From a virus, in the IMG/VR virus record IMGVR_UViG_3300043409_000654, positions 1 through 44,862 of that record: 44,862 nucleotides of DNA; one strand, 5' to 3'. Shown here in pieces: positions 4,401 to 40,472 of the stretch (the stretch's first letter is position 1; each line of letters opens with the position of its first letter). The translations under genes and the position numbers were made by a program. The notes beneath the pieces are model-generated. The model was not told where the DNA came from. It saw only the letters and a list, made by a program, of their open reading frames with translations, and did no database searches.

Positions 4401-6213
4401 AGCTCTTCCCTACCTTGCTCTCGCAGTTCAATGGCAAACCCAGCGCCCACTTGGGGCGGACGCGCATGCACTGCTCGATGAAGGCTCGACCCTCACCGGC
4501 TTCTTCGGCCCTGACCAGCGCACCGACAGCGTCATGCACGGTCATCACAACCTTGTAGCGCCTCGCGATCATCAGCATCTGCTCGCCCATGACGATGCGG
4601 GCCAAGGCTTGGCAAATGTTCTCGACCATCTTGCCGCCGTATATCCTGTTAGGGGTAGAGGCTTTGCCTTTCCGGGTGGTGTAGACCATTTCCTCCCTGC
4701 CAGTCTTCTCATCGGTGTGCAGTCGTAGCCCCGGATACTTGATCCACAAACCATTAGGCAGCTTTACGCCGCTAGGGCTAACCGACAGGACACCCGCAAG
4801 CCCAATAGGTTTGGCCCCGCTACGGACCATCTCACTAAGTGCTGTTTGGGCCTGTGACCACAGCCTCGGGATCATAGGATAAGTCTCACGGTAAACGTAT
4901 ATGATACGTTCACACTCCTTGAGCTCCATTTCGACACCGAAGTTCTTCAGCTGCGCCTTGAACTTGGCAGCACCCATGCCATACCCTGCGCCTAGGATGG
5001 TGGTCTTACCGACAAATCGTTCTTGTTCTGTGATCTCTTCTGCTGGCTTACCGTATATAGCGGACGCCATGATCTTATAGACATCCTCGCCTCGGTCGAA
5101 TGCCCTGACGAGGTCGCGTTGCCCCGCCAGCCACGCAAGGGTGCGGGCTTCAATCTGGCTGCTATCGCAGTCGATCAGCAAGTACCCGTCTGGTGCGCGC
5201 ATTGCCTTCTTTAGGGGCGACTTGCGGGGTAGATTTTGAAGGTTGACCTTATCATCCCCACCCCACCGCCCAGTATGGGCAGCGTAGTAGCGTAGGGGCA
5301 CGGGGAGATTGCCGCGCTCGGCAATCTTTAGGAACCTTTCGGTCCTTGTCTCTTCTAGCGTAGACTTAACGCCTAAGCGGGCCGCCACAACGGCCTGAAC
5401 AGGGAAGTCCTCATGCTCTAGCAGCGCCCTGAATGCTTCGTCCGTCTTGGCGAACGCGTATGTAGTTTTACCCGTAGTAGGGCTAATCTTCGTAGGGGGT
5501 GTCACGCCTAGGTCGGTCAGGACCTGTGCCAACTGACCGTTGGACATAAGCTGGTCCTTGGAGATGAGCGCCTTACCCAGCAGGTCATTCTTCTTGCGCT
5601 GCACCTCGGAGAGGTGGTCGGTCAGAGCTTGCTTGTCGAGGGTAAGGACGGGTTCGGTAAACATCCGGATCGTCAGGTCGATGAGCCGCAACTCCAACAT
5701 GGGGAAGCCGTCGGCCAGCAACTTGAACAACTCGTAGGTAAGCTCAACATCGTTGATGCAGTACTCCCCATAGCGGGCGAGGTCCTCCGGTGAGAAATCA
5801 ATACGCCCCTTACCGAGAGCGTTCAAGACCTCAGTCCCCTTGGCACCTAGCTGGAAGTACTCCGCAAGGCTCTTGAGGCTAAGGCTAATCCCTTCGGTGC
5901 CCAGCAGCGCCCGCGCCATCGACAGAGTATCTGCAATCCGCTTGGGCTGAATATCAAAGTGCCAACTCAGGATCGCCATATCGAACATAGCATTGTGCGC
6001 GACAGCGATGGAATTATCCCAGTCAAACTGAGCAAGCCACTTCTTAGTTGCAGCCTTCGGACCACTGAACCACTGGGTCTCGCCGTCGTTAACCTTAACA
6101 GCTACGCCGATCACCTCGAACAGTTCGTGGCGAATATATTCCTCAGTAGTAACTTTGGAGAGAGAATACTGCAGGTCGTAGTAAGTCTCAAAATCAATGG
6201 TAATAATATCCAT
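4390..6213 (-). CDS. polA: Family A DNA polymerase with 3'-5' exonuclease
   Basis: Replicative phage polymerase of the Pol I family, 607 residues. The exonuclease part shows ExoI DFET (D7, E9), ExoII AHNAMFD (D78) and ExoIII YCIND (Y151, D155). The polymerase part shows motif A DSSQIEAR (D350, Q353, E355), motif B RFVGKTTILGAGYG (R399, K403, Y411) and motif C TVHDA (H560, D561). Counting from the conserved Lys, the residue equivalent to E. coli F762 is L407, the leucine form known from many environmental phages. Motif C has Ala where E. coli Pol I has Glu. There is no 5'-nuclease domain. ATG 6213 is preceded by GGGAGGCAAGTAGATC. Confidence 0.95.
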   Translation of the reverse strand: MDIITIDFETYYDLQYSLSKVTTEEYIRHELFEVIGVAVKVNDGETQWFSGPKAATKKWLAQFDWDNSIAVAHNAMFDMAILSWHFDIQPKRIADTLSMARALLGTEGISLSLKSLAEYFQLGAKGTEVLNALGKGRIDFSPEDLARYGEYCINDVELTYELFKLLADGFPMLELRLIDLTIRMFTEPVLTLDKQALTDHLSEVQRKKNDLLGKALISKDQLMSNGQLAQVLTDLGVTPPTKISPTTGKTTYAFAKTDEAFRALLEHEDFPVQAVVAARLGVKSTLEETRTERFLKIAERGNLPVPLRYYAAHTGRWGGDDKVNLQNLPRKSPLKKAMRAPDGYLLIDCDSSQIEARTLAWLAGQRDLVRAFDRGEDVYKIMASAIYGKPAEEITEQERFVGKTTILGAGYGMGAAKFKAQLKNFGVEMELKECERIIYVYRETYPMIPRLWSQAQTALSEMVRSGAKPIGLAGVLSVSPSGVKLPNGLWIKYPGLRLHTDEKTGREEMVYTTRKGKASTPNRIYGGKMVENICQALARIVMGEQMLMIARRYKVVMTVHDAVGALVRAEEAGEGRAFIEQCMRVRPKWALGLPLNCESKVGKSYGG

Positions 6214-6254
6214 GATCTACTTGCCTCCCTTAGCTATGTTTGCGCGGCTTCTAA

Positions 6255-6659
6255 CTATGGCCAGCGAGTGGCAGGTGCCCATACCCGACCAGACGCAAAT
6301 AGGTCTGAGACAGCGTTCAAACGCGAAATCTTGTCGGTAGTAGCTGCGACTCCCGGAGCAGTGCGGCGGACCGTACCAACCTTCTCTACAGGCTCCCACT
6401 CTTCCGCAGCCTCTTCCAGTAGGATGGTGCGCATAACTGAATCGGTGAACATCGGTCCTTGGAGAGACACCCACTTATCATACAGAAGCGATACCTCTTC
6501 ATCGCTGAGGAATGGCAAGTCCATACCGTTTGTGGTTTCTTTATTACCGCCTACCCGCGCCCGTACTTGGCGCATGATGTGCTCCCACCTTCCGTTTTCG
6601 TAAAACTCCTCAGGGTGGCTCTCCATCCGCTTGAGCAGCAGCTGCACACCTTCGTTCAT
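6255..6659 (-). CDS. Early hypothetical protein ending in a captured terminase fragment
   Basis: A 134-residue protein. The first part (MNEGVQLLLKRMESHPEEF onward) resembles small helical phage early proteins. Residues 109-133 are identical to residues 433-457 of the large terminase encoded at 18853-20400, and the DNA is 75/76 identical, so the tail is a captured piece of terL read in the same frame. The captured segment lies between the second and third nuclease carboxylates of the terminase and carries none of them. ATG 6659 has TAGGAGCGAACAGA upstream. The original C terminus has probably been replaced. Function is unknown. Confidence 0.7.
   Translation of the reverse strand: MNEGVQLLLKRMESHPEEFYENGRWEHIMRQVRARVGGNKETTNGMDLPFLSDEEVSLLYDKWVSLQGPMFTDSVMRTILLEEAAEEWEPVEKVGTVRRTAPGVAATTDKISRLNAVSDLFASGRVWAPATRWP
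6261..6336. repeat. 76-bp near-identical copy of part of the terL gene
   Basis: On the minus strand this segment matches 20148-20223 with a single mismatch (T for G). Homology ends abruptly on both sides: CTAC versus GCAA before it and CCATAG versus GCCGAA after it. The copy is in inverted orientation on the map and keeps the same reading frame in both genes. No flanking direct repeats are evident. Confidence 0.95.
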
Positions 6660-6670
6660 TCTGTTCGCTC

Positions 6671-7531
6671 CTACGCAGCTACAACTCTGTAATCTTTGTG
6701 TACGAACCCGTCCGTCTCGCCCTTGACCATGCACGGCTGCACCCAGTGACGCACACCATGCTTGCTCGTACGGTAATATCCACGACGCAGATGGCTGCGC
6801 GGTGACGCATGGGTGCCACCCAAGAGCTGAGACTTCCGCTTTTTCCTACCTATGGTTAGCACCTTGTAAGTGAACAGCGGAGCCTTACCTCGCGTACGGC
6901 GGAAGCGGTTCTTGGCTTTGTCAGGTTCGATGTCGTCGAAAACAACTTCATTACTGTGAAGTACGTAACAGAAGTCGATGTAAGCGTTCATTTCGTCGCG
7001 TAGATCAGCCGCAATTTGTTGCGTCAACGCTTCTGCCGTCCCTGCCCACTTCCAGCGTATCGCCTCAAAGATTTTGGGTAAGCATACGTCATATTTCACG
7101 CGCACATGTGCTAAACCGTCCTTCACATAGAAGATATTTGGGTCATTATAATTGAAAGTACCCATATAGATGTGCGGAACCCACCGGTTTTCTTTTTCAT
7201 TAAAAAGGCACGGTAGGATGTTTACGTGCGTCCCCATGTCGATGGCAATAACGATACGCTTGGGGCAAGCAGTTTGTCCTTCGGGGGTTTCTCCCGGTAC
7301 TTCTGCATACTCTAATACCACATACTTGTATGGCGGTCTTAGCGAGTCGCCGCTGAACGATTTGAGGTTCCTGTCCGTCAGAATACCACCCTCCGGCAAT
7401 ACGAACACGATACCGCTTTCGCGCACTCGTGCCGCCGTAGCTTCGGCAATCATATAGTCTGCAGGATGGATCAGTTTTTTCAGCTTTGGTAGGCTGTCCA
7501 GATATTCGGTGAAAAATTGTCCGGGCTGCAT
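6671..7531 (-). CDS. Hypothetical protein, 286 aa
   Basis: An unrecognised protein that belongs to a type seen in other phage early regions. Its conserved-looking C terminus has HLRRGYYRTSKHG, then RHWVQPCMVKG and KDYRV. The N-terminal half is mixed alpha/beta without a clear motif. It has six or more cysteines but no zinc spacing. ATG 7531 overlaps the preceding VRR-NUC stop (TGATG) and is preceded by AAAAGGAGCAACG; GTG 7534 is an alternative. The basic C terminus could bind nucleic acid, which is inference only. Confidence 0.7.
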   Translation of the reverse strand: MQPGQFFTEYLDSLPKLKKLIHPADYMIAEATAARVRESGIVFVLPEGGILTDRNLKSFSGDSLRPPYKYVVLEYAEVPGETPEGQTACPKRIVIAIDMGTHVNILPCLFNEKENRWVPHIYMGTFNYNDPNIFYVKDGLAHVRVKYDVCLPKIFEAIRWKWAGTAEALTQQIAADLRDEMNAYIDFCYVLHSNEVVFDDIEPDKAKNRFRRTRGKAPLFTYKVLTIGRKKRKSQLLGGTHASPRSHLRRGYYRTSKHGVRHWVQPCMVKGETDGFVHKDYRVVAA

Positions 7532-7839
7532 CACGTTGCTCCTTTTGATGACAGTTGTCTCACCAGCGGGCGGATCATGTCCCAGTTCTCTTCGTTAGCG
7601 ATGACGGCCACGCCCCCACAGCGGCGGATAGCTTCGAGCTCCCTTGTCTGCAGTGCGGTCGGCTTGTTCTTCCCAGCCTTGACCTCGATCCCGAGGAAGG
7701 CACCGCCTACGCAGCACACGATGTCAGGCACACCACTACGTCCGTATCCGTGCGTAGCTGGAAAGAAGTAGTATACTCCCTCCTCCTTCAGAATGCCCAC
7801 CACCTTCTGTTTTACAGCGCCTTCGGGAGTTCGCGCCAT
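7531..7839 (-). CDS. VRR-NUC domain nuclease
   Basis: A 102-residue stand-alone VRR-NUC protein, a PD-(D/E)XK nuclease family related to Holliday-junction or structure-specific endonucleases. Motifs visible are HGYGRSGVPDIV (D39), LGIEVKAGKNKPTALQ (E52, K54, Q64) and a final helix. Phage copies are about this length. Likely role: processing of branched replication or recombination intermediates. The start (ATG 7839) lies 28 bases inside the end of the HNH gene, so that gene either arrived next to it or evolved an extended 3' end. Confidence 0.88.
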   Translation of the reverse strand: MARTPEGAVKQKVVGILKEEGVYYFFPATHGYGRSGVPDIVCCVGGAFLGIEVKAGKNKPTALQTRELEAIRRCGGVAVIANEENWDMIRPLVRQLSSKGAT

Positions 7840-8288
7840 GATACGCCTTTCTCAAATGTTCCGTTGTGCTTCCAATGGTAGTGTGCAAGCTCTTTGCTCA
7901 TGCCTAAATATGTAGCGCACTCTACTAAAGTCCCCTCGAATACTCCGTTGGTGTATATCCGGGTTGCCCTCTTATTCCTTTGCTGTTGACTACGAGTAGC
8001 CCACTGGCAATTCTCAGGATCATAACCTCGATTATTATCGACGCGATCTAGGCTATGCGTATTCGAGGGGCGCGGACCCATATCCGCAAGAAAGTTTTCA
8101 TACGTCATCCACCGTTCACACACGGTGATACCTCTCCCCCCATAATAAATATAGTTTTTTTGGTTCGGGTTGTTGCAACGGGCATGCATCGTGCGCCACG
8201 TGTAATGCTCGGGCAGTTCTTTCCCGCCTACATACCCACCATGCTTATATCGTGCTGCCCACCAACGTTCATACTTTTCCTTGTCCAT
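7812..8288 (-). CDS. HNH homing-type endonuclease with C-terminal wHTH-like tail
   Basis: A 158-residue protein of the AP2/HNH free-standing homing-endonuclease type. It has a leading YTWRTMHARCNNPN segment, YYGGRGITVCERW, the HNH core SLDRVDNNRGYDPENCQWAT (D81, N93, W96) and QQQRNK. Residues about 115-158 look like a DNA-recognition element (VECATYLGMSKELAHYHW). Such enzymes cut sites in related phages and spread their own gene. It sits between the 52-aa gene and the VRR-NUC gene and overlaps the latter by 28 bases. The start region has no strong ribosome site. Confidence 0.85.
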   Translation of the reverse strand: MDKEKYERWWAARYKHGGYVGGKELPEHYTWRTMHARCNNPNQKNYIYYGGRGITVCERWMTYENFLADMGPRPSNTHSLDRVDNNRGYDPENCQWATRSQQQRNKRATRIYTNGVFEGTLVECATYLGMSKELAHYHWKHNGTFEKGVSWRELPKAL

Positions 8289-15605: not shown

Positions 15606-15696
15606 GCAAGCAGTCACGACTGCCCGAAGGGATGTCGGACTGGAGCGCCAGTCTAGTATTTCGTGGCTCACTAATCAGCGTTAGCAACTGCTCACC

Positions 15697-15840
15697 GTGC
15701 ACTCGCTCGCCGCCTCCGCCGTGCACTCGCTCGCCGCCTCCGCCGTGCACTCGCTCGCCGCCTCCGCCGTGCACTCGCTCGCCGCCTCCGCCGTGCACTC
15801 GCTCGCCGCCTCCGCCGTGCACTCGCTCGCCGCCTCCGCC
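15697..15840. repeat. Six perfect 24-bp tandem repeats
   Basis: The unit begins GTGCACTCGCTCG and is repeated six times without a mismatch over 144 bases. It is very GC-rich, each unit holds the palindrome GTGCAC, and there are no spacers, so it is not CRISPR. All frames stay open because 24 is a multiple of three, but no ribosome site supports translation. Confidence 0.97.
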
Positions 15841-15850
15841 ATGCGGCAAG

Positions 15851-15925
15851 AACTGTCATAACAACTATCATCACTAACTGTCATAACAACTATCATCACT
15901 AACTGTCACAACATCTATCACACTA
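15851..15925. repeat. Three 25-bp tandem repeats, AT-rich
   Basis: Units start AACTGTCATAACAACTATC at 15851 and 15876 (identical) and at 15901 (a diverged copy starting AACTGTCACAACATCTATC). They lie ten bases after the GC-rich 24-bp array and could be iterons or protein-binding sites. Confidence 0.95.
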
Positions 15926-17240: not shown

Positions 17241-17817
17241 AGTAGCTTGTAACCTTACTTATCAAACACGCGGAGAGCGCCGCGCCGCAGGGGATTCCTT
17301 TCCCCATAATTCATATTAGGCGTGGCACGCTTATTCACCTAATCGGGATATCGAATTAATTCCAAGGTGAGCAGCATGGAGACGCGGCAGCTTAGGGAGC
17401 CGAAACGCGAGGCAGGCGCATAGTGGCAGGCCCCGAAAAAATCTCGCTCGCTTCGCTCGCTCTGGCGTATGGGGAGATGTAGCAAAACATGGGGGCGGGG
17501 GGTGGCGAACGATACGATTACCGATAGCTCAGCCCCACTATGGGGGCACCCCCCGAACTAGGCTGGCTAAGTTCCGCTCCGTATTACATACTAATCTGCG
17601 CATTAGATCACAAAGTTTCAAAAAGCAGACCCCCCTACCCCCTTCTAAATTCCCGTGCCACATACCGCGTGCTTCGCGCACACAGAAACACCCCCCGTCA
17701 ATGGTACCTTGCGTCCCCCAATCTACCCGGTATATAATGTATAGAACTCCCCCGGCCTCTCGATGCGAAAAGCTTGATCGACTGAGTAGTGAAGCACACT
17801 GGGGGGGTCACTTCTCT
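17241..17817. other. Non-coding control region before the late genes
   Basis: No convincing gene is seen. It contains long G or C runs, a GGGGG-CA-CCCCC hairpin near 17541-17553 and an imperfect inverted repeat ATTAGGCG/CACCTAAT near 17317-17343. The rightward promoter lies near its right end. It separates the leftward cassette from the rightward late operon. Confidence 0.6.
17709..17738 (+). promoter_or_regulatory. Candidate late promoter
   Basis: TTGCGT (17709-17714), an 18-base spacer and a perfect TATAAT (17733-17738). It lies 80 bases before the first rightward gene and is the best promoter seen for the packaging and structural genes. Confidence 0.6.
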
Positions 17818-18171
17818 ATGCCTTACAAGGACCCAGAGAGGCAGCGTATCGCTAGCCGAAAACACTACGAGAGCAATAAGGAAACAGTTAATGCCCGCTC
17901 AATGCAGCGAGCAACCATCGCACGCAAGAAGATACGGGTGTGGTTACATGAATACTTAAAGAACAACCCCTGCGTAGACTGTGGCGAAACGGACCCCGTT
18001 ATTCTGGAGTTCGACCATCAGCGGGATAAGTTGTTTACCATAAGCGATGCCCCTAAGAAAACTACATCGTTAAAAATAGTCGCCGCCGAAGTAGCCAAGT
18101 GCCAAGTCCGCTGCGCCAACTGCCACCGCAAGAAAACATATATAGAGCGTGGGCATACCCATAAAGACTAG
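17818..18171 (+). CDS. HNH endonuclease next to terminase
   Basis: A 117-residue HNH protein with a zinc knuckle. CVDC (52-55) and CANC (99-102) hold zinc; EFDHQRD (D66, H67) and NCHRKKT (N101, H103) form the beta-beta-alpha-metal core. The N terminus is basic. HNH proteins beside terminase genes can either assist packaging (as gp74 of HK97 does) or be free-standing homing enzymes; both remain open. ATG 17818 lies behind a run of seven G. It is the first gene after the late promoter. Confidence 0.85.
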   Translation: MPYKDPERQRIASRKHYESNKETVNARSMQRATIARKKIRVWLHEYLKNNPCVDCGETDPVILEFDHQRDKLFTISDAPKKTTSLKIVAAEVAKCQVRCANCHRKKTYIERGHTHKD

Positions 18172-18869: not shown

Positions 18870-20400
18870 AGCCAAGTCCTTCCTTGATGATATCAGTCTA
18901 AAGGATATACCGGCGATCTTGCCAGCCCTAAGCCTATCCGAGCAGGAACAGCTGCTGGCAGAACTGGAGAAGCTTGAAGAACTTAAAGGCAAGAAGCTTG
19001 CTGAGGAGCGGTTCCTCGCGTTCGTTAACCGTATGTGGCCTTCATTTATTAGTGGTCGTCATCATGCACGTATGGCTGAAGCGTTTGAACGAGTTGCACG
19101 AGGGGAGTGTAAGAGGCTCATTATTAACATGCCTCCTCGTCATACTAAATCTGAGTTTGCTAGTTATCTGTTTCCTGCTTGGTTCCTAGGCAAGTTCCCC
19201 CACAAGAAGGTCATCCAGTGTTCGCACACTGCTGAGTTGGCCGTAGGTTTCGGGCGTAAAGTCCGTAACCTCGTTGACACCGATACCTACCATAAGGTAT
19301 TCCCTGATCTTCACCTGCAGGCTGACTCTAAGGCGGCTGGGCGGTGGAATACATCGAAAGGGGGTGATTACTTCGCCATCGGTGTGGGAGGTGCGGTTAC
19401 CGGTAAGGGCGCTGATGTCCTTATCATTGATGACCCTCACTCCGAGCAGGAAGCGGCCCTCGCAGAAGTAAACCCCGACATCTACGACAAGACCTACGAG
19501 TGGTATACTTCAGGCCCTCGTCAGCGTCTGCAGCCCGGTGGCTCTATAGTCGTGGTTATGACGCGGTGGTCGAAGCGAGACCTCACAGCGCAAGTGCTAA
19601 AAGCTGCCGCCCAGCGCGGCGGCGACGAGTGGGAAGTCATCGAGTTTCCCGCCATTCTCCCCAGCGGTAACCCGCTGTGGCCTGAGTTCTGGCCGATGGA
19701 GGAGCTTAGCGTCCTGCGGGACGAGCTACCTAACAGTAAGTGGCAGGCACAGTACCAACAGGCCCCGACATCCGACACTGCAGCTATTGTCAAGCGGGAA
19801 TGGTGGCAAGAATGGCCGGACGATAACCCCCCAACCTGTGACTTTGTTCTTATGTCGTGGGATACGGCGTTCGAAAAGACCCAGCGTGCTGACTATTCGG
19901 CATGTACTACGTGGGGTGTATTCTATCAGCCCGACGCGTCCGGGGTAGACCAAGCTAATATTATCCTGCTAAATGCCTTCCGAGATCGTATGGAGTTCCC
20001 AGAACTTAAGAAGTGCGCCATCGAGGAGTACCGAGAGTGGGAGCCCGACAGCGTGATTATCGAGAAGAAGGCTTCGGGTGCGCCTTTGATCTACGAGATG
20101 CGTGCGATGGGTATCCCGGTACAGGAGTTTACACCTACACGGGGCAACGACAAGATTTCGCGTTTGAACGCGGTCTCAGACCTATTTGCGTCTGGTCGGG
20201 TATGGGCACCTGCCACTCGCTGGGCCGAAGAAGTGATTGAAGAAGTGGCGTCTTTTCCCGGTTCAGAGCACGACGACTACGTCGATACAGTCTCAATGGC
20301 CTTGGCGCGGTTCCGTAGGGGCGGCTATATTACGACCAACCTCGACGAACCAGACGAAATACAGTATTTCAAGCGCCGTAAGCAGCAGGGATATTATTGA
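18853..20400 (+). CDS. terL: Large terminase subunit (ATPase and nuclease)
   Basis: A 515-residue packaging motor. The ATPase domain has a deviant Walker A NMPPRHTKS (92-100) and Walker B VLIIDDPHS (189-197). The RNase-H-like nuclease has SWDTAF (D337), VIIEKK (E404) and EHDDYVD (D475/D476). It translocates DNA into the prohead and cuts concatemers. ATG 18853 follows AGAGGGCGAAG inside the end of terS. Residues 433-457 are duplicated in the early gene at 6255-6659. The stop overlaps the portal start (TGATG). Confidence 0.96.
   Translation: MTLTHKAKSFLDDISLKDIPAILPALSLSEQEQLLAELEKLEELKGKKLAEERFLAFVNRMWPSFISGRHHARMAEAFERVARGECKRLIINMPPRHTKSEFASYLFPAWFLGKFPHKKVIQCSHTAELAVGFGRKVRNLVDTDTYHKVFPDLHLQADSKAAGRWNTSKGGDYFAIGVGGAVTGKGADVLIIDDPHSEQEAALAEVNPDIYDKTYEWYTSGPRQRLQPGGSIVVVMTRWSKRDLTAQVLKAAAQRGGDEWEVIEFPAILPSGNPLWPEFWPMEELSVLRDELPNSKWQAQYQQAPTSDTAAIVKREWWQEWPDDNPPTCDFVLMSWDTAFEKTQRADYSACTTWGVFYQPDASGVDQANIILLNAFRDRMEFPELKKCAIEEYREWEPDSVIIEKKASGAPLIYEMRAMGIPVQEFTPTRGNDKISRLNAVSDLFASGRVWAPATRWAEEVIEEVASFPGSEHDDYVDTVSMALARFRRGGYITTNLDEPDEIQYFKRRKQQGYY
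20148..20223. repeat. terL segment that is duplicated at 6261-6336
   Basis: This 76-base piece of terL is the counterpart of the inverted copy in the early region, with one mismatch. It encodes the stretch between the second and third nuclease carboxylates and is in its native context here. Confidence 0.95.
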
Positions 20401-22904
20401 TGGCTATTGACAAAGCTCTTAACCAAGCTCCGCTGGGTCTTTCTATGGGCGCAATGCCTGATATGGGCGGTCCTGACCTCGAAATTGAGATTGAGGACCC
20501 CGAAGAAGTAACGCTTCGCGCGGGCGACATGGAAATCGAGATTGATCCAGATGCGGAGGAAGAAGACGACGAGTTTTCTGCAAATCTGGCCGAAGATATG
20601 GACGAAGGCGTGCTTACAGAGCTCGCTGGAGACCTACTTGGCGAGTTCGACGAGGACATTTCGGCCCGTAAGGACTGGATTCAGACTTATGTAGACGGCC
20701 TTGAGCTTCTCGGCATGAAAGTTGAGGACCGAACGGAGCCGTGGCCCGGTGCATGCGGTGTATACCACCCCCTCCTCAGCGAAGCGGTAGTAAAGTTTCA
20801 GGCTGAGACCATGATGGCGACGTTCCCTGCCGCTGGTCCGGTGCGTACAGAGATTATCGGCGCTGAAACGCCCGCGAAGAAAGAAGCTGCGACCCGCGTC
20901 GAAGCGGATATGAACTACCAGTTGACCGATGTGATGGTCGAGTACCGTCCTGAACACGAACGTATGCTGTGGGGGTTGGGCCTTGCAGGTAATGCGTTCA
21001 AGAAGGTGTACTACGATCCATCACTCGGTCGTCAGGTCTCGATGTATGTGCCTGCGGACGACGTAGTTGTCCCTTACGGTGCGTCTAACTTGGAAACTGC
21101 AGAACGTGTGACGCACGTAATGCGTAAAACCGAGAACGAGCTTGACCGCCTGCAGGCCGCAGGCTTCTACCGCGACGTTGAACTGCCAGAACCCAGCGAC
21201 ACTCTCGACGAGGTTGAGAAGGCTATTGCCGAGCGCATGGGTTTCCGCGCGTCTACCGACGACCGGTACAAAGTTCTTGAGATGCACGTCGATCTTGAGA
21301 TCGAAGACGATAAGTATGCGGACAAAGATGACGTCGCTCTTCCATATGTCATCACTATCGAGAAGCAAACGCAGACTGTTCTAGCTATTCGGCGTAATTG
21401 GAACCCCGATGACAAGCTTAAACGCAAGCGCAATCACTTCGTTCATTACTCGTATATTCCGGGTTTCGGCTTTTATGCTTTTGGACTTATCCATCTTGTT
21501 GGTGCTTTTGCTAAGTCTGGTACCAGCCTTATTCGCCAGCTTGTTGATGCTGGTACTCTATCCAATCTACCGGGTGGCTTCAAAACTAAGGGACTGAGGG
21601 TTAAGGGCGACGATACGCCGATTGCCCCCGCTGAGTGGCGAGACGTAGACGTAGCCTCGGGTACAATGCGCGACAATATCATGCCGCTCCCCTATAAGGA
21701 GCCGAGCCAAGTCCTGTATTCGCTTCTGAATACCATCGTAGAAGAAGGTAGGCGGTTTGCCTCTGCAGCGGACCTGCAGGTCAGTGATATGTCGGGACAG
21801 GCCCCGGTAGGCACTACGCTGGCTATTCTGGAGCGCACACTTAAGACTACTTCGGCCATTCAGGCCCGCATTCACTATGCCCAGAAGCAGGAGTTCAGGC
21901 TCCTCAAGGTCATTATCCGGGACTACACACCCGACACCTACTCCTACGACCCCGTAGAGGGCAGCCGCAAGGCCAAGAAAGCCGACTACGATCAGGTTGC
22001 TGTTATCCCCGTTTCGGACCCCAACGCGTCCACAATGGCCCAGAAGATCGTCCAGTATCAGGCGGTCCTCCAGCTGGCCCAGACGGCTCCGCAGATTTAT
22101 GACATGCCGTATCTGCACCGGCAGATGCTCGAAGTGCTGGGTATTAATAACGCCAACAAGCTCGTCCCGCTCAAAGACGGCGACGACATGAAACCGCGTG
22201 ACCCGGTGTCTGAGAACATGGACATCATCAACGGCAAGCCGGTCAAGGCGTTTATCGGACAAGACCACGAAGCGCATATCGCAGTGCATATGGCAGCGAT
22301 GCAAGACCCGCAGATTCAGCAGCTTATGGGCCAGAACCCGAACGCGCAGGCGATGCAGGCTGCCATGATGGCGCACCTTAACGAGCATATTGCCTTCGCT
22401 TACCGCAAGCAGATCGAAGATACCGTAGGCGTCCCGTACCCGGCCCCCGGCCAAGAGATGTCGGCTGATTTGGAGGTACAGATTTCGCGCCTCGCCGCTG
22501 CCGCAGCCCAGCAGTTGCTCCAGAAGAAGCAGGATGAGGCCCAGCAGCAGCAGAACCAGCAGATGGCTCAGGACCCCATCGTCCAGATGCAGCTGCAGGA
22601 ACTGCAGATCAAGCAGGGTGAGCTCGAAATCAAGAAGGGCGAGCTTCAGCTTAAAGAGAAGAAGCTCATGCTGGACGGCATCGTCCAAGCAGACAAGAGC
22701 GAAACCGAAGACAAGCGTATCGACAGTCAGGTCCAGATCGCGGGCATGCAGGTCGGCGCACAGATGGCGACAAGCGAAGCCAAACTCTCCGCTCAGCAAC
22801 AAGAAGCCGGGCTCAAGATGGGTATCGAGATCGCCAGAACTACTTTGGACAACACAGCCCAAAAGGATGTACCCGCTCAACAAGCGCAAACTGAGGAACA
22901 GTAA
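20400..22904 (+). CDS. Portal protein
   Basis: An 834-residue portal, forming the dodecameric ring through which DNA enters and leaves the capsid. It follows terL directly, has an acidic N terminus, a central body with WKPGA-like WPGACGVYHPL and an extended region (SVSDPNASTMAQKIVQYQ-type segment near residues 537-556), and a long Gln-rich coiled coil over about the last 130 residues (QKKQDEAQQQQNQQM and following heptads). Length and tail suggest the long portal type of P22-like and marine podovirus groups. ATG 20400 overlaps the terL stop. Confidence 0.85.
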   Translation: MAIDKALNQAPLGLSMGAMPDMGGPDLEIEIEDPEEVTLRAGDMEIEIDPDAEEEDDEFSANLAEDMDEGVLTELAGDLLGEFDEDISARKDWIQTYVDGLELLGMKVEDRTEPWPGACGVYHPLLSEAVVKFQAETMMATFPAAGPVRTEIIGAETPAKKEAATRVEADMNYQLTDVMVEYRPEHERMLWGLGLAGNAFKKVYYDPSLGRQVSMYVPADDVVVPYGASNLETAERVTHVMRKTENELDRLQAAGFYRDVELPEPSDTLDEVEKAIAERMGFRASTDDRYKVLEMHVDLEIEDDKYADKDDVALPYVITIEKQTQTVLAIRRNWNPDDKLKRKRNHFVHYSYIPGFGFYAFGLIHLVGAFAKSGTSLIRQLVDAGTLSNLPGGFKTKGLRVKGDDTPIAPAEWRDVDVASGTMRDNIMPLPYKEPSQVLYSLLNTIVEEGRRFASAADLQVSDMSGQAPVGTTLAILERTLKTTSAIQARIHYAQKQEFRLLKVIIRDYTPDTYSYDPVEGSRKAKKADYDQVAVIPVSDPNASTMAQKIVQYQAVLQLAQTAPQIYDMPYLHRQMLEVLGINNANKLVPLKDGDDMKPRDPVSENMDIINGKPVKAFIGQDHEAHIAVHMAAMQDPQIQQLMGQNPNAQAMQAAMMAHLNEHIAFAYRKQIEDTVGVPYPAPGQEMSADLEVQISRLAAAAAQQLLQKKQDEAQQQQNQQMAQDPIVQMQLQELQIKQGELEIKKGELQLKEKKLMLDGIVQADKSETEDKRIDSQVQIAGMQVGAQMATSEAKLSAQQQEAGLKMGIEIARTTLDNTAQKDVPAQQAQTEEQ

Positions 22905-36481: not shown

Positions 36482-37576
36482 GTGACGATCCAGACCGACC
36501 ACCCAGCAGATACGCTGACGCCCTCGACCGGCACTCTCAAGGTGTCCGGGATTACTGAGGTCACCGGCTCGATCAAGCTGGATGGCTCGTCTTCTGGTGT
36601 TGTCACGATCCAGCCCGCTGCCGCGGCGGGCACCTACACGTTGACGCTTCCGACCACGGACGGCGCGGCGAGCGAGTTTCTTCAGACGGACGGCTCTGGA
36701 GTGCTGACTTGGGCCGCAGCCAGCGGGTCGGGCACGGTCACAAGCGTCAGCTTTACCGGAGGCATCGTTTCCGTTGCCAACCCCACGACCACCCCGGCGT
36801 TCACGGTTGCGGGAACCTCTGGCGGCATCCCGTATTTCTCGGGCGCAACCACTTGGGCAACCTCTGCGGCCCTTGCGGCTAACGCTCTGGTTGTGGGCGG
36901 CGGCGCGGGTGTGGCCCCGGCCACGGTCACTACCGGAACGGGTGTTGTTACGGCTCTGGGCGTCAATACCGGGACCGCAGGCGCGTTTGTTGTCAATGGC
37001 GGCGATCTTGGCACACCCTCGTCCGGCACCGTCACCAACCTGACCGGCACGGCATCGATCAACATCAACGGGACCGTCGGCGCAACAACGCCTGCTGCCG
37101 GGTCGTTCACCACGTTGGGTTTGACCGGCGTAAAATATAGCGCGGCGGGGTCGGCGCAGGGCGCGGCGATCACAGACTATTTCACTTCTACAATCTCGCT
37201 TGACGCAAGCAGCCTCTATGAAATTGACGCGGTTGCCTATTTCCTGAAAACCACAGCAGGCACAGTAATTTGGACGTGGGCCTTTAGCTCTGCGCCCGAC
37301 GTTATCTCCAGTTTTTATACTGGAACCCCTACCTCTGGTTTCACGACAACGACGATCACGGGCAACCAAGTGACCGCTCAAGCCCACGTGCAGACGGCGA
37401 CAACAATGGCTCACGCAGCCAGCGGTTCGCTAACCACCGCAGTTTATCATCTATTCCGGTTTAGGGTGATGGTCGAGACAAACGGCGCGACCACGATACA
37501 GCTACGCTCGACCCAGAGCGCAGGAACGCTGACGCCGCAAGCCGGGTCGTATATGCGCGCCACGAAGGTGCTATAA
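36482..37576 (+). CDS. Tail fiber protein
   Basis: A 364-residue Gly/Thr/Ala-rich protein with typical fiber strands (GTYTLTLPTTDGAASEFLQT near the N terminus) and a module LTGTASININGTVGATTP that is nearly identical to one in the fiber at 39177-40472. The C-terminal 150 residues are a distinct domain (YSAAGSAQGAAITDYFTSTI onward), probably a beta-sandwich head. GTG 36482 follows the upstream stop directly. Confidence 0.8.
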   Translation: MTIQTDHPADTLTPSTGTLKVSGITEVTGSIKLDGSSSGVVTIQPAAAAGTYTLTLPTTDGAASEFLQTDGSGVLTWAAASGSGTVTSVSFTGGIVSVANPTTTPAFTVAGTSGGIPYFSGATTWATSAALAANALVVGGGAGVAPATVTTGTGVVTALGVNTGTAGAFVVNGGDLGTPSSGTVTNLTGTASININGTVGATTPAAGSFTTLGLTGVKYSAAGSAQGAAITDYFTSTISLDASSLYEIDAVAYFLKTTAGTVIWTWAFSSAPDVISSFYTGTPTSGFTTTTITGNQVTAQAHVQTATTMAHAASGSLTTAVYHLFRFRVMVETNGATTIQLRSTQSAGTLTPQAGSYMRATKVL

Positions 37577-37578
37577 TC

Positions 37579-38046
37579 ATGCCCCACAGTATACGGCACA
37601 CACCAGTTTGGGTAAGTAATATGGCACAGCTAGGCCCAGTAAAGTTTCTCACCGTCCACTGCGCGGCAACGCCAGAGGGACGCCACGTGACGCACGAGCA
37701 AATCACGCAGTGGGACAAGGCCAAGTTCGGACAGACTAGCTACCACTGGGTTATCGAGCTTGATGGCTCCACGCACCGCACCCTTAAAGACGACCAGAAG
37801 GGCGCACATGTCGGCGGCGCTAACACGGGCAACATCGGCATCTGCTACATCGGCGGTGTCGATAAGAACATGAACCCCAAGGACACGCGCACCCACGCGC
37901 AAAAGAAGTCGCTCCTCACGCTCATTCGGACGTACAAGGAGCGCTATCCCGGCATCCTCATTCGCGGGCACCGCGATTGGCCGGGCGTTAAAAAGGCTTG
38001 TCCCAGCTTCGATGTCGATAGCTGGCTCGCTGAAACAGGAGATTGA
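37579..38046 (+). CDS. T7 lysozyme-like N-acetylmuramoyl-L-alanine amidase (endolysin)
   Basis: A 155-residue endolysin of the amidase_2 family, close to T7 lysozyme in length and layout. It cuts the amide bond between muramic acid and L-alanine. Visible are TVHCAAT (zinc ligand H27), YHWVIELDG (Y55), GNIGICYIGG, and RGHRDWPGVKKACPSFD with H131, K139 and C141; these match H17, Y46, H122, K128 and C130 of T7. ATG 37579 has AAGGTG eight bases upstream; ATG 37621 is also possible. It opens the lysis block. T7 lysozyme also inhibits its RNA polymerase, but no such polymerase is seen here. Confidence 0.93.
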   Translation: MPHSIRHTPVWVSNMAQLGPVKFLTVHCAATPEGRHVTHEQITQWDKAKFGQTSYHWVIELDGSTHRTLKDDQKGAHVGGANTGNIGICYIGGVDKNMNPKDTRTHAQKKSLLTLIRTYKERYPGILIRGHRDWPGVKKACPSFDVDSWLAETGD

Positions 38047-38048
38047 TT

Positions 38049-38216
38049 ATGTTGAACGTGATTGTAGCCCGGCTCAAGGAACCTTCGACGTATGCTGGCT
38101 TCGCTGGCATTGCGCTTGCGGTGGGCGTCTCGGCCCCACTCTTCACGGCAGTTACCACATTTGTAGCTGCCGCTGCGGGCCTCGTTGCTGTCTTTGTGGC
38201 TGAAAAGAAAGCCTGA
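38049..38216 (+). CDS. Holin-like small membrane protein
   Basis: A 55-residue protein with two probable membrane segments, at about residues 14-30 (YAGFAGIALAVGVSAPLF) and 33-50 (AVTTFVAAAAGLVAVFV), and a charged end EKKA. Position between amidase and spanin genes suits a class II holin, which would permeabilise the inner membrane and release the endolysin. ATG 38049 follows GGAGATTGATT and the stop overlaps the next ATG (TGATG). Confidence 0.65.
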   Translation: MLNVIVARLKEPSTYAGFAGIALAVGVSAPLFTAVTTFVAAAAGLVAVFVAEKKA

Positions 38217-38434
38217 TGATCCGCCTACTGGCGTCCCTGTTTGGGTTTCTGGACAAGCTGTTTGGCCTGTTTCGGGACGGTAAATTGCAAGAGCAGGGGC
38301 GTCAGCAGGCTATTAAGGAGGCGAACGATGAGATCAACCGGCAAGTGGAACTGGGCGAAGCCGCTCTTGCTGTTCCCGATCCTGTTCGTGACGAACGCCT
38401 GCGTAACCGCTTCGACCGTTCCCATAGCAAGTAG
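38216..38434 (+). CDS. Rz-like inner-membrane spanin (probable)
   Basis: A 72-residue protein with an N-terminal hydrophobic/amphipathic segment (LLASLFGFLDKLFGLF, 4-19) followed by a charged, coiled-coil-like helix (QEQGRQQAIKEANDEINRQV) that would face the periplasm. This matches a small i-spanin. The second half of the gene contains the start of the lipoprotein gene 38328-38564 in another frame, the classic nested arrangement. Short length for an Rz makes this a moderate assignment. Confidence 0.6.
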   Translation: MIRLLASLFGFLDKLFGLFRDGKLQEQGRQQAIKEANDEINRQVELGEAALAVPDPVRDERLRNRFDRSHSK

Positions 38435-38564
38435 CTATTGCCGTATCGCCAAACCAATCACCTACGATACTGTTAAAGACACTCAAGATACGGTAAAGCA
38501 GGTCGAAGAGCATAATTCTGCATGGGTGTGCATTTGCGAGAGCGACTGCCCTAAAGCTCCCTAA
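38328..38564 (+). CDS. Rz1-like outer-membrane lipoprotein spanin, nested start
   Basis: A 78-residue lipoprotein. The signal peptide KPLLLFPILFVTNAC ends at the modified cysteine (C25); the lipobox TNAC is loose. The mature part has DTVKDTQDTVKQVEEHNSAW and VCICESDC, like small o-spanins. ATG 38328 is preceded by AAGGAGGCGAACG, a perfect ribosome site, and lies inside the Rz-like gene in a different frame, sharing 107 bases. Together the two would join inner and outer membranes in the last step of Gram-negative lysis. Confidence 0.7.
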   Translation: MRSTGKWNWAKPLLLFPILFVTNACVTASTVPIASSYCRIAKPITYDTVKDTQDTVKQVEEHNSAWVCICESDCPKAP

Positions 38565-38588
38565 CACTGGAAGGAAAGGAGAGGGTAT

Positions 38589-39167
38589 ATGTTCGGTTTC
38601 TCTCCTTTTGCCGATACTCCTTTCGCCGCAATCCCTACGAGTAGTAGCGGAGCAATCAGCGTAACCCTCACGGGGGTCAGTGCCGCAGGCACCCTCGGTA
38701 CTGCTACAGTTACCGGCCTAGCACGCGTAACCCTCATCGGCGTTTCCGCCGCAGGTACTCTGGGCACCGTAACTGCAACTGTAGCAGTACCAGCCGACGT
38801 AACCCTTACCGGCGTTTCCGCCGCAGGCACCCTCGGTACTGCTACAGTTACCGGCCTAGCACGCGTAACCCTCACGGGGGTAAGCGCCTCTGGCACCCTC
38901 GGTACAGTTTCAGTTAGCTTCCCCGTTAATGTGGTTCTCACTGGGGTCAGTGCCAGCGGCACCCTTGACACCGTTACAGTTACCACAGCTGGGGTGGTAT
39001 ATCTTACTGGCGTGCAAGCGCTCGGTCTGATATCTAATGTCCTTGTTTGGGGGCAGATTAATAGCGATCAGACCCCCAACTGGCAGTCTATTGATGATTC
39101 CCAGACCGAAAACTGGGTGCAAGTTGTAGACGGCAACACAGTGACTTGGGTTCAAATCCCGACGTAA
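38589..39167 (+). CDS. Repeat-containing fiber or tail protein
   Basis: A 192-residue protein built of repeated VTLTGVSAAGTLGT-type beta units (about seven) followed by a domain WQSIDDSQTENWVQVVDGNT rich in Trp, Asn and Gln. It looks like a tail fiber or tail-tip component. A perfect 55-bp direct repeat (38682 and 38820) lies within the repeat units. ATG 38589 follows AAAGGAGAGGGTAT, a strong ribosome site. Confidence 0.75.
   Translation: MFGFSPFADTPFAAIPTSSSGAISVTLTGVSAAGTLGTATVTGLARVTLIGVSAAGTLGTVTATVAVPADVTLTGVSAAGTLGTATVTGLARVTLTGVSASGTLGTVSVSFPVNVVLTGVSASGTLDTVTVTTAGVVYLTGVQALGLISNVLVWGQINSDQTPNWQSIDDSQTENWVQVVDGNTVTWVQIPT
38682..38736. repeat. 55-bp direct repeat, first copy
   Basis: Identical to 38820-38874, 138 bases apart, in the same frame of the repeat protein. 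It encodes the AAGTLGTATVTGLARVTL portion. Recombination between the copies would change the number of units. Confidence 0.95.
38820..38874. repeat. 55-bp direct repeat, second copy
   Basis: Second copy of the 38682-38736 segment, in the same reading frame of the repeat protein. Confidence 0.95.
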
Positions 39168-39176
39168 GGAACGAAG

Positions 39177-40472
39177 ATGGCTAGTACATATAGCAACCTC
39201 AAAGTCCAGTTGATGGCAACGGGTGAGAACTCGACGACTTGGGGCAATGTTACTAACATTAACCTCGGTACTGCTATTGAGGAAGCCATCACGGGCTCGG
39301 CAGACGTTGCCTTCTCCAGCGCTAACGTGACGCTTACGCTTACGGATACCAATGCTACGCAGACTGCGCGCAACCTGCGCCTTAACCTGACGGGTACCGC
39401 CACTGCGGGTTATAACCTCGTCGTGCCAGCCATCGAAAAAGCATATATTGTCAACAACGGCACTGACGGCACGGTCACGGTAAAGAACGCCACCGGTACT
39501 GGTATTGCGGTTCCGACGGGTAAGACGATGTGGGTGTTCAATGACGGCACGAACGTCAAGGACGTCGTTACTCACCTCTCGTCTCTTTCCTTGGGGACCG
39601 CGCTCGTCGCCACTGGCGGCGGTACCGGCCAGAACGTCTATGCAGTGGGCGACATACTTTACGCTTCGACGACCACGGCGCTTAGCAAGCTGGCTGACGT
39701 AGCGACGGGTAACGCACTTATCTCTGGCGGCGTGGGTGTCGCCCCATCATACGGCAAGATTGCCCTGACCACACACGTTTCGGGTACGCTGCCGGTAGCC
39801 AATGGTGGTACCGGCGTAACGACTAGCACCGGTTCGGGCAACACAGTGCTCTCAACCAGCCCGACGCTAGTAACCCCCGTTCTTGGCACGCCATCTTCCG
39901 GCACTCTCACTAGCTGTACGGGCCTACCCCTTACTACGGGTGTTACGGGTACGCTGCCTGTTGCTAACGGCGGTACCGGCGTAACGACTAGCACGGGTTC
40001 GGGTAACGTAGTTCTCTCAACCAGTCCCACGCTCGTAACCCCCGCTCTTGGTACACCGGCCTCTGGCGTAGTGACTAACCTGACCGGCACGGCCAGCATC
40101 AATATCAACGGTACGGTCGGTGCAACCACGCCTACCACTGGCGCGTTCACGCTTCTCAAGGGCACTTCGGCTACCACGACTACGGGTACGACTATCACCC
40201 CTACGTCGGCTACGACCAACCAATACACCGTAACTGCCCTCGGTTCGGGCGCTACAATCGCGGCCCCTAGCGGATCGCCCACCGACGGGCAGAAACTAAT
40301 CATCCGCATCAAGGACAACGGCACTGCTCGCGCCCTTACGTGGAACGCCACATACACAGAGAGAGGGACCACACTGCCCGCGACTACTGTAGTTGGCGAA
40401 ACTCTGTATGTAGGGTGTATTTATAACTCTGCGGCGTCTGTATGGGATGTTGTCGCGGTTACATCAGGATAA
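39177..40472 (+). CDS. Tail fiber protein with internal repeats
   Basis: A 431-residue fiber. The N-terminal part (MASTYSNLKVQLMATGENST) is a module typical of phage fiber attachment. Residues about 200-300 hold two copies of a segment with GTLPVANGGTGVTTSTGSGN and LSTSPTLVTP, often seen in phage fibers. Next is LTGTASININGTVGATTP, shared with the fiber at 36482-37576, and then a C-terminal beta domain (GQKLIIRIKDNGTARALTWN). ATG 39177 follows AAGGAACGAAG. Confidence 0.85.
   Translation: MASTYSNLKVQLMATGENSTTWGNVTNINLGTAIEEAITGSADVAFSSANVTLTLTDTNATQTARNLRLNLTGTATAGYNLVVPAIEKAYIVNNGTDGTVTVKNATGTGIAVPTGKTMWVFNDGTNVKDVVTHLSSLSLGTALVATGGGTGQNVYAVGDILYASTTTALSKLADVATGNALISGGVGVAPSYGKIALTTHVSGTLPVANGGTGVTTSTGSGNTVLSTSPTLVTPVLGTPSSGTLTSCTGLPLTTGVTGTLPVANGGTGVTTSTGSGNVVLSTSPTLVTPALGTPASGVVTNLTGTASININGTVGATTPTTGAFTLLKGTSATTTTGTTITPTSATTNQYTVTALGSGATIAAPSGSPTDGQKLIIRIKDNGTARALTWNATYTERGTTLPATTVVGETLYVGCIYNSAASVWDVVAVTSG

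Follow-up and report, generated by a model that had tools for sequence, protein, structure and literature searches.

A short inverted copy of terL at the 3' end of an early phage gene, probably a one-off templated insertion

Illegitimate recombination, a contributor to mosaic phage evolution, usually takes place between phages and at gene borders. The other described processes closest to the locus analyzed here involve polymerases that switch templates. Templated insertions of the MMBIR type, reported for human cells and yeast, introduce a short copy from elsewhere, often inverted, while the template is kept; the templates lay at most 100 bp away by search design, and template-switch insertions in human tumours mostly showed microhomology of 2-12 bp (PMC8421209). 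Template switching between inverted repeats in coding DNA, in which a polymerase switch rewrites coding sequence, occurs in a system that requires short imperfect inverted repeats (PMC8604942).

We analyzed a window of 44,862 nucleotides, comprising positions 1 to 44,862 of IMG/VR virus record IMGVR_UViG_3300043409_000654, in which a piece of the terminase gene had been predicted to end an early gene. Consistent with the original prediction, a BLASTN comparison within the window (E = 2.4e-32) matched a 76-bp minus-strand segment of the early gene to terL at all bases but one, and similarity dropped to background at once beyond either edge. The two copies lie 14 kb apart in opposite orientation and, in a self-comparison, constitute the sole near-identical long-distance inverted repeat in the window. 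Translation confirmed the predicted residue numbers and the kept terL frame: the copied piece reads DKISRLNAVSDLFASGRVWAPATRW, equivalent to TerL residues 433-457 and to residues 109-133 of the 134-aa early protein, where it is followed by a proline and the stop codon. The donor terL remains intact (Table 1). The kept frame by itself argues only weakly for selection, since a copy of this 76-mer would be open in four of its six frames.

Table 1. Coordinates of the features associated with the copied terL segment (window positions)
Feature	Position	Strand	Details
Copied terL segment	6261..6336	-	75/76 identical to 20148-20223 (+), terL frame
Source segment in terL	20148..20223	+	Codons 433-457, RNase H-like nuclease domain
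Intact terL, 515 aa	18853..20400	+	PHROG 38 E 1e-107; Terminase_6C at residues 335-485
80-bp insertion relative to the sister's empty site	6258..6337	-	C + 76 bp terL + CCA; placement ambiguous by one A
134-aa early protein	6255..6659	-	ATG 6659, TAG 6257-6255; residues 109-133 TerL-derived; family of uncharacterised phage proteins
Remnant of native 3' end (TAGTTAG...GGCAAGTAG), out of frame	6217..6257	-	Native stop TAG 6219-6217
DNA polymerase gene, 607 aa	4390..6213	-	Downstream of early gene; ribosome-binding region untouched

The uninterrupted target site is present in a sister phage, represented by a single record (L273+L274; IMGVR_UViG_3300032240_000618) with the gene order of the window and roughly 75-94% DNA identity gene by gene. 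Its ortholog of the early protein has 124 aa and ends in GPATIVRTSRP. At the site itself (L273/L246) the sister reads CAGCTACTA^TAGTTAG, compared to CAGCTACTA-C-(76 bp of terL)-CCA-TAGTTAG in the window, with no flanking base lost; this parse was made by eye, and automatic alignment sets the gap slightly differently. The inserted stretch is thus 80 bp (76 + 1 + 3 extra bases) rather than the 76 bp originally proposed, which stands as the length of the copied part. Joining the flanks without these 80 bp restores a single frame ending in GVAATIVRSRANIAKGGK, whose stop precedes the polymerase ATG by 3 nt. With the frame shifted by the insertion, the native end (ATIVRSRANIAKGGK) is replaced, so that the TerL piece does end the 134-residue protein, as proposed, but by displacing the native C-terminus and not merely by extending it.

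The early protein is 59% identical to that of the sister, compared to 97% for the product of the next gene upstream, suggesting that the early gene is fast evolving or mosaic in this stretch; the empty site is accordingly that of one sister, at about 59% protein identity in the early gene, within what may be a mosaic stretch. The closest terL, at 96.9% DNA identity (window 18901-20402), is found on an 8643-bp contig (L272) whose early region is diverged (about 43% protein identity) and which ends before the early gene, a pattern that points to strong mosaicism around the terminase between this contig and the window.

All 82 terL loci compared (two of them from the same record) have the segment at the same position, and none of about 75 distinct early-protein homologs contains it, which sets the direction of copying from terL to the early gene. 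Six positions vary among the early copy and the terL genes of the window, L272 and the sister; each is a synonymous third position of a terL codon. At 20160, the copy and the window terL share a G where both outgroup terL genes have a T, whereas at 20172, the single mismatch, the copy and both outgroups have a T and the window terL a G. The copying is thereby timed relative to two terL substitutions, and the simplest order suggested by these alleles would be a T to G change at 20160, then copying, then a T to G change at 20172. Of the 82 terL loci, 18 likewise have GCG at the second codon, making homoplasy or a co-existing donor strain compatible with the allele pattern.

The receiving gene sits between those for a 287-aa protein of unknown function and the phage DNA polymerase. 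Its product had no match in Pfam, PHROG or NCBIfam, and no DNA similar to window positions 6000-6800 was found among INPHARED phages. Scans nevertheless recovered numerous homologs, mostly encoded beside a DNA polymerase gene, with only two weak relatives in bacterial or archaeal genomes. The distinct homologs read share a helical core, conserved over about 87 residues (MN-GVQ-LL-RM-S-PEEF ... LPFLSDEEV ... FT..VM..LL), followed by hypervariable tails that differ in length and sequence. None carries TerL sequence at its C-terminus, and we therefore rejected an ancient shared TerL-like domain, the origin against which the prediction had asked that homologs be compared. In an AlphaFold2 model built from 36 sequences, the helical core is predicted with confidence and the tail with low confidence (pLDDT 52-60); a helix is weakly predicted for residues 111-122, which belong to the TerL piece. 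In another homolog (L213:2791-3219), part of the tail is duplicated in tandem and in frame (VELIEAKAKLAELSSLSR then VELIEAKTKLAELSSLSR), a further sign that the family tail tolerates insertions.

Taken together, these data make it highly probable that the early gene received a piece of terL through a one-off, rare and lineage-specific templated non-homologous insertion. In an ancestor phage, a DNA end would have broken or stalled at CTACTA^TAGTTAG, close to the 3' end of the early gene that precedes the polymerase gene. Its repair, through a polymerase template switch or the capture of a fragment, would have brought in about 76 bp from the terL of the same phage in inverted orientation, added 1-4 filler bases and rejoined the DNA at that position. 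The sister's empty site, the clean junctions and the intact flanks support the short non-homologous recombination envisaged at the outset. Junction microhomology is 0-1 bp at both ends, below the 2 bp or more taken to indicate a template switch; it becomes longer only if a one-base deletion is allowed in the GGG run at the 3' edge, in which case two of the filler bases also correspond to terL. Given that microhomology in PMC8421209 is mostly 2-12 bp, a terL fragment captured at a break would explain the insertion about equally well, and the junctions do not single out one repair route.

Apart from terL sequence and filler, the 80-bp insert holds no target-site duplication, element ends or endonuclease gene, on which grounds insertion of a transposon or homing element was rejected. 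In terL of several relatives, 14 bp match the beginning of the copied segment in inverted orientation; this match was also discarded as a trigger, as it is absent from the window except in the copy. The suggestion that the two inverted copies might recombine with each other found no trace in the sequence, and such an event would break terL. No other similar inverted repeat more than 500 bp apart was detected in 17 related records (about 733 kb) or in 316 retrieved loci (2.9 Mb with some redundancy, no locus exceeding about 20 kb), and direct repeats were few in the same self-comparisons; insertion events of this type are rare in these phages. The insert would have been tolerated because it hit a variable, probably flexible tail and brought along a quick stop, and it is probably near neutral, its likely effects being that the native tail and the tight stop-start spacing are lost, with no gain of TerL function.

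An artifact in which terL reads were misplaced into the early gene, the assembly chimera of the original prediction, merits consideration because the record is a virus contig assembled from a metagenome and because its junction sequences occur in the early gene of no other IMG/VR record. The 17-mer spanning the 5' junction had one IMG/VR match, in an unrelated gene, and the 14 matches of the 3' junction 15-mer were judged to be chance, similarity to the early region extending over only 15-17 bases and once over 25 bases at 92%. A chimera would, however, require two independent junctions, each with its filler (C and CCA), that rejoin exactly at the sister's uninterrupted site, and the copy carries at 20172 the outgroup allele that the window terL lacks; we consider this origin unlikely. 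A similarly low probability attaches to a nuclease cut in the early region, at or near CTACTATAGTTAG, that was mis-repaired with a terL fragment. The window encodes HNH proteins at 7812-8288 and 17701-18171, the former missing from that place in the sister, whose polymerase in turn holds an intein-like element with an HNH frame; this pattern of presence and absence indicates that homing elements move in this region, and the rebuilt target, ACTATAGT, is a short palindrome. A homing-related repair event, as raised initially, is possible to that extent, but nothing ties the site to a nuclease: the insertion is separated from the window HNH gene by about 1.5 kb and from the intein site by about 1.3 kb, the junction contains no homing element, and a short palindrome easily arises by chance.

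Other readings concern what the insertion does rather than how it arose. The native stop lay 3 nt before the polymerase ATG and the present one lies 41 nt before it, and in the sister the early-gene stop apparently overlaps the polymerase start as GTGA (the start being inferred). Such a shift might loosen translational coupling and lower or free polymerase synthesis, but a good ribosome-binding region (AAGGGAGG) still directly precedes the polymerase ATG and stop-start spacing differs among relatives; regulation of this kind is unlikely as the significance of the insertion, and a mild effect on polymerase translation through the lost spacing is possible. The insert itself presented nothing notable in terms of promoter, terminator or RNA structure. 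The kept frame and sense of terL, mildly suggestive of selection, and the helix weakly predicted in the TerL piece would suit a fusion whose TerL peptide serves the packaging motor as a decoy or adaptor. The terL frame, however, is but one of the four that are open, a 25-residue fragment from inside the nuclease domain is not, in isolation, a known interaction element, and the fusion is unique to the window phage among those examined. The peptide moreover falls in the low-confidence part of the model and the variable part of the family, leaving the proposed decoy unsupported and, in our estimation, extremely improbable. That either the TerL-derived tail or the altered stop-start spacing was selected, linking the early protein to packaging or to polymerase dosage, is very unlikely; if true, it would mean that the phage made a fusion gene out of a captured part of its own motor.

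Several further features were observed in the two genomes. The window HNH genes lie upstream of the early gene (7812-8288) and just before the gene preceding terL (17701-18171). The sister polymerase gene carries an in-frame insertion of about 948 bp (L273:6743-7690, minus strand) that is not in the window polymerase; it is intein-like, starts with CLAEGTPVLTDRGW and ends in VHN-C (PHROG 93, E 4e-25), with no Pfam or NCBIfam match. The insertion also encodes, in a second frame, an HNH endonuclease (PHROG 374, E 1.7e-30), and the intein frame is stop-free across this 262-codon HNH frame, as achieved by only 0.09% of synonymous shuffles. A literature search returned no clear precedent. The stretch of the window before the late genes harbors tandem arrays of 6.2 copies of a 24-bp unit at 99% (15695-15844) and about 3 copies of a 25-bp unit (15851-15925), and the late region (37003-40133) contains several diverged direct repeats of 50-130 bp that are 74-90% identical.

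The templated insertion of terL sequence is most likely an accidental mutation, ordinary in kind, rare and unusually well resolved, and not a designed feature. As a natural example of a phage gene whose end received a copied fragment of another, essential gene, it is cleanly resolved with respect to the donor sequence, the uninterrupted site, the filler bases and the relative order of events. Events of this type offer small phage proteins one way in which their variable tails could change, and the tail hit here seems to tolerate such damage.

With the insertions of PMC8421209, this locus shares a short, inverted copy from elsewhere and a template left in place, but the distance here is 14 kb and the host genome that of a phage. 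As in the system of PMC8604942, a polymerase switch may have rewritten coding sequence, although no inverted repeat of at least 11 bp tied the terL segment to any other place in the window before the insertion. With illegitimate recombination among phages, it has in common a joint made without homology and an odd gene fragment left in a non-essential part; unlike the usual outcome of that process, the event was intragenomic and inverted, fell inside a reading frame and retained its source.
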